Below, piece by piece: positions 34,156 to 60,302 of a stretch of DNA of 64,000 nucleotides. Below the pieces are notes generated by a model. The model made no database searches, was not told where the DNA came from, and worked only from the letters and a program-made list of their open reading frames with translations. The stretch is from Candidatus Bathyarchaeia archaeon (lineage in GTDB: Archaea > Thermoproteota > Bathyarchaeia > Hecatellales > Hecatellaceae): NCBI GenBank assembly GCA_038883335.1, contig JAVZMI010000003.1, positions 62,001 to 126,000 of the forward strand, in the 5' to 3' direction. A program made the position numbers and the translations under genes. Within the stretch, counting starts at the first letter, position 1; the number at the start of each line of letters is the position of its first letter.

Positions 34156-35196
34156 TCAAGAGGACCAGTGGTCCACATTTTTGGTGGGAGTTTCAGGTAA
34201 GATACTCTGCGCTTTCCGCCTGGCAGTGGAGGCGGCTTGGGCGAGAATCTTCTGAGTATCGCCCTTAAGCTCAAATTCCCCCAAGCTCGTACATGTTGGG
34301 AGGTCAGTTACTCCAATGAAACATCCAGTCTCCTCTACCATCTTTCTAAGTTCTTCCGACACTTCCGGCATGACATTGGCCAGCTGCTTCGCTAAACCAG
34401 CAATTGCCCCGGAGATCGGGTGAAATAAATCCGCGACGCCTCCAAGCTCCTTCACCGTTTCAAGCCGCAACACAATAGCGTCTAAGGTCATCTGACTTGA
34501 GAGGAGAATCTCTGCTATCTTACGGCTCTCGGAACATTCTTCAGCGTAGACCTTAGCCGTGTCATCATCCCCAGCCGCACGAGCCCGGCTACACTTCTCG
34601 AAGAGAAACGCACTCCGACTCTGAGCTTTAGCTGAGGCTTGAGCTATCCGCTCTCGTTGCATCTTTAACTTATCTAAGATTACATCTAAGTCAGCCAGTA
34701 AACTTGTTGGTCTTAGCCACCCACCAAGGCAAGCGCAAAAATTGGGCACGTTTTGGGATAAAAGTTTGCATGTTTTCTCATAGAGCATATTTAGAGTCTT
34801 AAAAACCGTAAAAGCAAATATCCACGAAGAGAGCAACGGGAGAGGATGTGCTGTTATCTGGTCGATAACATACTTTGCTTGAGGAAGCTCCCCAACGAAA
34901 ACTTGGATTACGAAAATGTATATGGCTGCCAATGGGATGAAGACCAGCAGGAGGTCAAGATAGCTGGCAAAATATGGTTCGTAGAATATCTTCCTAAGTC
35001 GACCCCTGCTCTTGCCTGATAGGAATGCGGCTGAGGCTCCAAGTAGGGCGGCGAAGAAAGAGAGCCTCACTGAAGCGGGCTCCAAACCCATAAAGGGCAT
35101 CAAGTATGAGGCTGCATATATCCATGCCACAGTCGATGCTAACACCAAGACAAGCCCGCATATACAGGAAATGTGATTTGGCCTCTCACCCTCCAA
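34156..35196 (-). CDS. ESCRT-III (CdvB-like) protein with four N-terminal membrane helices
   Basis: The C-terminal half is ESCRT-III-like and collinear with the CdvB paralogue at 35307. AKVYAEECSESRKIAEILL corresponds to AIYANECAEVRKIAKVVL there, and VLRLETVKELGGVADL to GLRLETIREFGDVAAE. The N-terminal part is hydrophobic with four predicted membrane helices at about 10-33, 43-61, 79-102 and 118-138; the ESCRT-III domain spans roughly 165-305. Archaeal CdvB proteins are normally soluble and recruited to membrane by CdvA. Here the filament-forming domain looks permanently anchored. Length is 346 residues. Function in cell division or membrane remodelling is inferred from the family. Confidence 0.8.
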   Translation of the reverse strand: MEGERPNHISCICGLVLVLASTVAWIYAASYLMPFMGLEPASVRLSFFAALLGASAAFLSGKSRGRLRKIFYEPYFASYLDLLLVFIPLAAIYIFVIQVFVGELPQAKYVIDQITAHPLPLLSSWIFAFTVFKTLNMLYEKTCKLLSQNVPNFCACLGGWLRPTSLLADLDVILDKLKMQRERIAQASAKAQSRSAFLFEKCSRARAAGDDDTAKVYAEECSESRKIAEILLSSQMTLDAIVLRLETVKELGGVADLFHPISGAIAGLAKQLANVMPEVSEELRKMVEETGCFIGVTDLPTCTSLGEFELKGDTQKILAQAASTARRKAQSILPETPTKNVDHWSS

Positions 35197-35306
35197 ACCG
35201 GAAGCCTCTCTATTTCAACCGCGGCCTTAAACCATGAAGGCAGCGCCTCTACAGTCTAATTGCCATTTTGGTGGCGAACCTATAGGAAGTTGGCTGAGAG
35301 GAAGCT

Positions 35307-35954
35307 TCAGCGTGATTCCGGTGTACTCTCTGAGGTTGCCCCTCCTGGAACTGGAAGTGCAGGGAAGTGGTCTTTCATCCTCTGTTCAGCCACAACATTG
35401 GCGTCATGGAGTATTTTCTGAGCCTCGCTGCTTGATGCCTCGAAGTCAAACCCCGAGCCTGTAGCCTCCCCCGCCTCTACTACCAACCCGTTCAGAGTAT
35501 CGCCTATAACACCTAACTCATACGAAACTTCTGGGATGATCCCTGCAAGATGACCTTTCAAAGATTGAATTACATGGGTCAACGGGCTCATCTCAGCTGC
35601 TACATCGCCAAACTCCCGTATCGTCTCTAGTCTAAGACCAACCTGCTCCAAAGCCAACTGACTACGAAGGACCACTTTAGCTATCTTTCTGACCTCCGCG
35701 CACTCATTGGCGTATATCGCTGCTCGCCCCTCATCAGCCTCTGAGATAGCAGTAGTGCAGTGTTCGAAGAGTTCTCTATTCTTGCTTTCCAGCCTATTGC
35801 TGAACTGCTCTAGCTTAGACTGGATTACTTTAATCCTGTATATTGAGTTCGAAAGCCGCTCCTTCAGAGGAGGCCTGTTATGGATCCTCTCTCCTATCTT
35901 ATCCAAGATAGACTCTTTCTTCACTATATCCCAGTCCTTGACAAACTTCAACAC
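35307..35954 (-). CDS. cdvB: ESCRT-III family protein (CdvB-like)
   Basis: A 215-residue soluble ESCRT-III protein. Helical core residues about 30-180 include AIYANECAEVRKIAKVVLRS and LALEQVGLRLETIREFGD, close to crenarchaeal CdvB. ESCRT-III subunits polymerise on membranes for division or vesicle budding and are disassembled by CdvC/Vps4. I see no clear MIM motif or broken-winged-helix at the short proline-rich C-terminus (HFPALPVPGGATSE). The membrane-fused paralogue lies 110 bases downstream on the same strand. CdvA and CdvC are absent from the window. Confidence 0.82.
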   Translation of the reverse strand: MLKFVKDWDIVKKESILDKIGERIHNRPPLKERLSNSIYRIKVIQSKLEQFSNRLESKNRELFEHCTTAISEADEGRAAIYANECAEVRKIAKVVLRSQLALEQVGLRLETIREFGDVAAEMSPLTHVIQSLKGHLAGIIPEVSYELGVIGDTLNGLVVEAGEATGSGFDFEASSSEAQKILHDANVVAEQRMKDHFPALPVPGGATSESTPESR

Positions 35955-59549: not shown

Positions 59550-60302
59550 CTAAACCTTTTGTAGAGTATTATCAAAAGTATTATCGCTCGGTCTATCAAG
59601 CTCTACTTTTTTCCTTCTTTGTTCTATAATTGGCCTTATTTTTTCGTTTATTTTATACTTGTAGGGAATTGAGCCTGTCTCTCTTTCTACGTAGCCTTCA
59701 CTGAAAAGTTTCTTCATTAAACGGGCAGTGTGCTCCCTTGTTTTACCGACCAGATTCTTCAGCTCTGGTGCCGGCTTCGGACCTTCAAACGCTAGACATT
59801 CCAAAATATGCAATTCGGTCGGAGTTAATTTTGATATGAAAATCTCTCCTTCCACAGGCAGTATAGCAGTTTTCTCCACCTCAGGGAGCAACCCTCTATA
59901 TCTATTATCAAGTGATTTGACTTGCTCTTGAAATTCATCCTGCCTCCTCGCCAACTTTACAATATATTCCTTTATCGCCACAAGATTCTTTGCTATTACG
60001 TTTTGAACGTTCAACGTATACTCGACGCAACTTTTCATATTCGTAAAATTTTCACCGCCCAATTTCATGTGTTCGTAGGCGGAAGACGCGAGCGAGGAGG
60101 CCTCATGCGAAATTTTAAGAGCCTCCTCAATCTTGAGGTTTTGAGTCTTCAAACGGGTGTTAAAGCTCTCAATGAGAGTTGCAACTATGCTTTTTGCTTC
60201 GCGGTAACTAGCAGTTGCCTTTGATAGCTTGATGTATGAATACAAAAGGATAATTGTAGCAATGATTGCTGAAGGAAATAGTAAGATTAAGGTCTCAAAC
60301 AG
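59550..60302 (-). CDS. Membrane-anchored winged-helix regulator (non-standard start proposed)
   Basis: The C-terminal winged helix reads KLTPTELHILECLAFEGPK, then LVGKTREHTARLMKKLFSEG and VERETGSIPYKYKI. A coiled-coil-like middle (about 45-145) precedes it. The frame continues upstream of TTG 60245 through about 19 hydrophobic codons to CTG 60302, six bases after a perfect GAGGTGA. That start gives an N-terminal membrane helix (LILLFPSAIIATIILLYSY). An ATA start at 60308 is also possible. If only the TTG is used, the protein is 231 residues and soluble. Its 5' end faces the TGTGAT palindrome field. Function is not known. Confidence 0.7.
   Translation of the reverse strand: MFETLILLFPSAIIATIILLYSYIKLSKATASYREAKSIVATLIESFNTRLKTQNLKIEEALKISHEASSLASSAYEHMKLGGENFTNMKSCVEYTLNVQNVIAKNLVAIKEYIVKLARRQDEFQEQVKSLDNRYRGLLPEVEKTAILPVEGEIFISKLTPTELHILECLAFEGPKPAPELKNLVGKTREHTARLMKKLFSEGYVERETGSIPYKYKINEKIRPIIEQRRKKVELDRPSDNTFDNTLQKV

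Follow-up and report, generated by a model that had tools for sequence, protein, structure and literature searches.

A predicted membrane-embedded CdvB1/B2 paralogue encoded beside a soluble ESCRT-III protein in the archaeal family Hecatellaceae

In the current view, the contact of archaeal ESCRT-III with the membrane is purely peripheral and is made by short amphipathic helices and by CdvA as a scaffold. In the bathyarchaeal genome studied here (G000; 1.22 Mb, 98.9% complete, a draft of 18 contigs), two ESCRT-III genes lie in tandem, and the product of the downstream gene begins with a series of hydrophobic helices. This raises the question of whether these helices truly belong to the ESCRT-III protein and, if so, what a built-in anchor would add to a soluble neighbor. 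The locus was analyzed within a contiguous stretch of 64,000 nucleotides of this genome, referred to as the window.

Architecture of the fused protein

Both open reading frames of the collinear pair were found where the original prediction had placed them (Table 1). The membrane and ESCRT-III parts of the downstream protein lie in one reading frame, with no stop codon between them. The proposed order of four hydrophobic helices within the first 140 residues, followed by the ESCRT-III domain, holds as an architecture, but helix 4 ends a little beyond residue 140, and by hydrophobicity two of the four are no more than marginal spans. A promoter and terminator scan with a bacterial model was uninformative.

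Table 1. Features of the tandem ESCRT-III locus, in window coordinates.
Feature	Position	Strand	Description
TM-ESCRT-III gene	34156..35196	-	346 aa, TTG start; N-terminal membrane helices and C-terminal CdvB-type ESCRT-III domain
Membrane helix 1	35089..35175	-	residues 8-36; hydrophobic core 8-29, dG -0.84
Helix 2	35020..35079	-	residues 40-59; marginal span, dG 1.57
Basic loop KSRGRLRK, between helices 2 and 3	34990..35013	-	residues 62-69; predicted cytosolic by the positive-inside rule
Membrane helix 3	34894..34977	-	residues 74-101; core 75-97, dG -1.01
Helix 4	34756..34842	-	residues 119-147; marginal span, dG 1.81
ESCRT-III domain, helices a1-a5	34201..34701	-	residues 166-332
MIM2-like tail LPETPTK	34180..34200	-	residues 333-339; without counterpart in the Ca. 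Hecatella fusion
Gap between TM-ESCRT-III and soluble partner genes	35197..35306	-	110 bp; 102 bp in Ca. Hecatella
Soluble partner, CdvB1/B2-like ESCRT-III	35307..35954	-	215 aa; usual N-terminal region and MIM2-like FPALPVP tail

The C-terminal part of the fusion was identified by profile searches, in which residues 170-339 match the CdvB1/B2 model (1.5e-22) and the CdvB model (8.1e-22). Among solved structures, a sequence-profile search of the PDB returned CdvB (9s9j, 1.5e-18) and CdvB2 (9s97, 2.2e-15). The fusion shares 35% identity over 164 aa with its soluble neighbor, which itself matches CdvB1/B2 at 3.9e-62. Its NCBIfam score of 80/350 bits is under the cut-off, as are those of soluble bathyarchaeal paralogues (198-214/350), and for Pfam Snf7 the fusion scores 10.9 and the neighbor 16.8 against a cut-off of 27.3.

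AlphaFold2 predicts a canonical ESCRT-III core with high confidence, made up of helices at residues 166-207, 211-251, 255-272, 277-297, and 312-332, with pLDDT values of mostly 94-98 for a1-a4. When the model was searched with Foldseek, CdvB2 was the best match (E 2.5e-6) and the first eleven matches were CdvB2 and CdvB structures from 2026. The objection that structure prediction might reveal no ESCRT-III fold is thereby answered. In the tail of the fusion, the two prolines of the MIM2 family motif are kept, while the L between them is not.

In the membrane part, a hydrophobicity scan identified residues 8-29 and 75-97 as clearly membrane-spanning and residues 41-59 and 114-135 as marginal. 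The absolute dG values of the scan are approximate; the controls behaved, with two membrane proteins scoring and no spans found in the other Cdv proteins tested or in two soluble controls. AlphaFold2 places helices at residues 8-36, 40-59, 74-101, and 119-147, with pLDDT values of mostly 57-78. Across both known fusions, the membrane-part models reach a pLDDT of about 43-78 with a two-row alignment in this region, and a pTM of 0.49-0.51 does not fix how the parts are oriented relative to each other.

The basic loop between helices 2 and 3, together with a basic stretch after helix 4, fits an N-in/C-in topology. The topology prediction yields two clear spans and a charge bias consistent with one arrangement, with the remaining two spans left marginal. 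Should helices 1 and 3 alone cross the membrane, the ESCRT-III domain would still lie inside, provided that the N-terminus does. Taken together, the hydrophobicity scan, the AlphaFold2 models, and the CdvB matches support the view that a true ESCRT-III fold and a membrane anchor are combined in one protein.

The short N-terminal amphipathic helices of CdvB, CdvB1, and CdvB2 are absent from the fusion, which carries the hydrophobic helix bundle at its N-terminus instead, and the N-terminal region of the soluble neighbor has no counterpart in it. Searches of Pfam, PHROGs, and PDB profiles for a known family of the bundle gave chance-level matches only.

The fusion in a second genus and its distribution

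A search for the same fusion in relatives was successful in Candidatus Hecatella orcuttiae JdFR-11 (G001, MTLY02000002.1; metagenome-assembled), which NCBI places in the Bathyarchaeia, Hecatellaceae, as another genus of the family. Its fusion of 325 aa lies downstream of its own copy of the same soluble partner. Two segments alone score as spans in this protein, the basic loop reads RTKGRLRK, and the full five-helix ESCRT-III fold is also predicted, with CdvB2 and CdvB as the best solved matches (AlphaFold2, Foldseek).

The membrane parts of the two fusions are 35.3% identical (z = 11.6 vs shuffles), with z-scores of 8.8 for the helices and 5.1 for the basic loop, compared to 23.5% identity (z 7.5 vs shuffles) for the ESCRT-III parts. 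The difference in identity has a Fisher p of 0.028, calculated from one genome pair. Soluble orthologues from the same two genomes are 60% (CdvB1), 55% (CdvB with winged helix), and 54% (soluble neighbor) identical. These sequence comparisons suggest that selection on the membrane module is no weaker than on the ESCRT-III module, whereas the opposite would be expected if the helices were a passive anchor for a bulk subunit of the filament.

Within the family, the distribution of the fusion is patchy. A profile of the membrane part gave a real match only in G000 and Ca. Hecatella among 257 genomes of the class, and no further genome matched among 398 of the phylum. Weak matches in two genomes (G180, G255) proved to be unrelated loci, and further weak matches in two others (G356, G365) had the same chance-level scores. 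The full-length fusion profile matched ESCRT-III in 239 of 300 phylum genomes, and among the matches listed, none but G000's own spans most of the membrane part. From 139 distinct ESCRT-III frames fetched, two contain spans inside the expected gene, namely the two fusions.

One candidate for an additional fusion was not counted. In G047 (contig C25, L060:1721-2452), the hydrophobic stretch lies entirely ahead of MKFTENW, the canonical start of a soluble-type ESCRT-III frame; an in-frame ATG within this very hydrophobic stretch could possibly give a single-helix anchor, although the stretch is more likely untranslated. The fourth ESCRT-III match in G003 (contig C16:1-132, L116) is a contig-end fragment of the soluble type. 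A viral origin was rejected, as phage records and viral contigs gave no match.

The soluble partner is a third ESCRT-III paralogue, present in all four Hecatellaceae genera sampled. In two sister genera (G002, G003, and G005-G007 examined, some of these genomes being incomplete), no fusion was found after the soluble gene or elsewhere; the soluble gene is directly followed by DUF99 (G003, G005) or by a phosphopantetheine-adenylyltransferase-like gene (G002, G006, G007). In the concatenated tree, G000 takes the basal position in the family, and G001 is nested within, where the genus of G002 is its sister (supports 100/98 and 99/99). The fusion is probably ancestral, the simplest history being that it arose once, ahead of the split of the family, and was then lost twice; a transfer between the lineages of G000 and G001 is possible. 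The fusion's ESCRT-III domain could not be assigned to one source paralogue by tree, as the branches are too long.

The gene order in Ca. Hecatella is nth-ESCRT-TM-ESCRT-MBL-DUF99. The pair of G000 is flanked by nucleoside diphosphate kinase and Alba, with DUF99 about 21 kb and nth about 27 kb away in the same window. The soluble gene adjoins nth in G001, G002, and G005-G007, and the contig of G003 ends before that point. That the pair was kept together through rearrangement suggests a working link between its members. Elsewhere in the window (59550-60245), a MarR-like winged-helix protein has a coiled-coil-like N-terminus, and its listed frame lacks a TM-like start; its relatives near the nth-ESCRT cluster of G001 and G006 start with a hydrophobic, TM-like stretch.

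Proposed role and competing explanations

Judging from sequence and structural models, we favor, with about even confidence, an integral-membrane CdvB1/B2 paralogue that serves as an accessory subunit anchoring, seeding, or capping the filaments of its soluble neighbor. The bundle would be embedded in the cytoplasmic membrane so that the ESCRT-III domain and the N-terminus, as well as the basic loop, face the cytosol, and it would stand in for the short amphipathic N-terminal helices of an ordinary CdvB. Such a permanently anchored subunit could co-assemble with filaments formed mainly by the soluble neighbor and may act in membrane remodeling such as late division or vesicle release. Its ESCRT-III part may have diverged more freely because such a subunit would have fewer contacts within the filament than one of the bulk subunits. 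The absence from two sister genera indicates an accessory part that is not essential to division in the family. The fusion possibly directs filaments to a different membrane site. A further-reaching version, which we consider rather unlikely, has it seed the neighbor's filaments at its own membrane sites without CdvA, providing this TACK archaeon with a second, CdvA-free entry into ESCRT-III assembly.

A serious rival, albeit an improbable one, is an anchored inhibitor, in which the divergent domain, held at the membrane, would attach to the end of the neighbor's filament and block or end its growth, making the protein a membrane-fixed regulator and not a builder. The ESCRT-III part has indeed evolved very fast, with end branches of 2.84 and 4.41 for the two fusions in the paralogue tree compared to a median of 0.25. 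Of the family-conserved ESCRT-III positions, the window fusion keeps 31/47 and the Ca. Hecatella fusion 23/47, having lost 24, while four soluble paralogues keep 43-46 of 47-48. Helix a1 is hardly conserved between the fusions (15%, z 1.1), and the MIM2-like tail has been lost in Ca. Hecatella, where removal by Vps4/CdvC may consequently not apply. It is this divergence, with the lost positions and the lost tail, that keeps a regulatory cap in contention, and the dispensability of the fusion in sister genera points in the same direction. On the other hand, both fusions are predicted to keep all five helices of the fold, and fast evolution by itself is no proof of inhibition.

We attach a similarly low likelihood to a membrane-remodeling subunit with a job outside division, such as vesicle release, membrane repair, or envelope stress, in a use comparable to that of bacterial PspA with its membrane partners. 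In G000, the genes for CdvA, CdvB1, CdvB with winged helix, and CdvC are all located beyond the window, the pair lies apart from these loci, and its patchy presence within the family fits such a use. Bacterial Snf7 homologues with a TM segment are reported in operons with an ATPase and transporter genes (PMC11237479). However, the ESCRT-III domain is most closely related to the CdvB1/B2 division proteins, and no stress or vesicle genes were recognized beside both copies of the fusion.

The original prediction held that archaeal ESCRT-III needs CdvA for membrane attachment, and that the built-in anchor could replace this adaptor; it suggested a search for missing CdvA in genomes with the fusion. 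The premise is outdated, since soluble CdvB proteins bind the membrane themselves; in Sulfolobus, the N-terminal amphipathic helices of CdvB, CdvB1, and CdvB2 are needed for efficient in vitro liposome binding (PMC12818579). CdvA is encoded in both G000 (PF18822 9.6e-26; NF041007 6.6e-34) and Ca. Hecatella (PF18822 2.9e-23; NF041007 1.6e-31), the latter also having CdvB with winged helix and CdvB1. A replacement would give filaments a CdvA-independent attachment, but with CdvA present in both genomes the anchor most likely adds to CdvA, and a replacement is very improbable. In both genomes, cdvA adjoins an ABC ATPase and a permease-like gene, away from cdvB (L058:972-2995, L057:687-2639). FtsZ over the Pfam cut-off is present in G001, G003, G004, and G006, and none was found in G000; a frame of >740 aa in G000 (contig C6, ~72878; L076:1030-3249) combines long coiled-coil-like regions with a tubulin/FtsZ-like stretch that scores 25.6 bits against PF00091, under the cut-off.

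Lastly, an artifact, be it a misassembly, a frameshift, or a membrane gene and an ESCRT-III gene joined by chance, can be practically dismissed: although the fusion is found in two genomes only, one metagenome-assembled and the other a draft, an uninterrupted frame with alignable membrane parts and the same upstream partner recurs in a different neighborhood of another genus, which speaks against an assembly accident.

Relation to known ESCRT-III systems

The fusion resembles Sulfolobus CdvB1/CdvB2 (PDB 9s97-9s99) and CdvB (9s9j, 9s9k) in its ESCRT-III sequence, its predicted a1-a5 fold, and, for the G000 copy, perhaps its MIM2-like tail. It differs from these soluble proteins with amphipathic N-terminal helices (PMC12818579) in its predicted integral bundle and its far more divergent ESCRT-III part. 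CdvA, a PRC-domain/coiled-coil scaffold, is likewise proposed to hold ESCRT-III at the membrane, but it is an unrelated protein encoded by a separate gene of the same genome. As with PspA and its membrane partners in the PSP system, an ESCRT-III superfamily protein is linked to integral membrane segments; in the PSP system, this link usually exists between separate proteins and not within one polypeptide. A survey of PSP systems (PMC11237479) mentions in passing an actinobacterial Snf7-RND transporter fusion and other bacterial Snf7 homologues that carry a TM segment; by description, an ESCRT-III superfamily domain is likewise attached to membrane spans in these bacterial proteins. The archaeal bundle has no convincing match in Pfam, PHROGs, or the PDB.

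Term searches in two surveys on the domain architectures of archaeal ESCRT proteins (PMC8970359, PMC10936438) turned up no mention of a transmembrane CdvB, and no description of a membrane-embedded archaeal cell-division ESCRT-III was found in the open-licence literature. The fusion would also offer a clean tool for a question that the Cdv structures of 2026 have raised (PMC12818579), namely whether contact with the membrane is by itself enough to open and seed the filaments. As a whole, a natural, conserved ESCRT-III protein that carries a transmembrane bundle of its own would represent a further solution to membrane attachment within a normal Cdv background.
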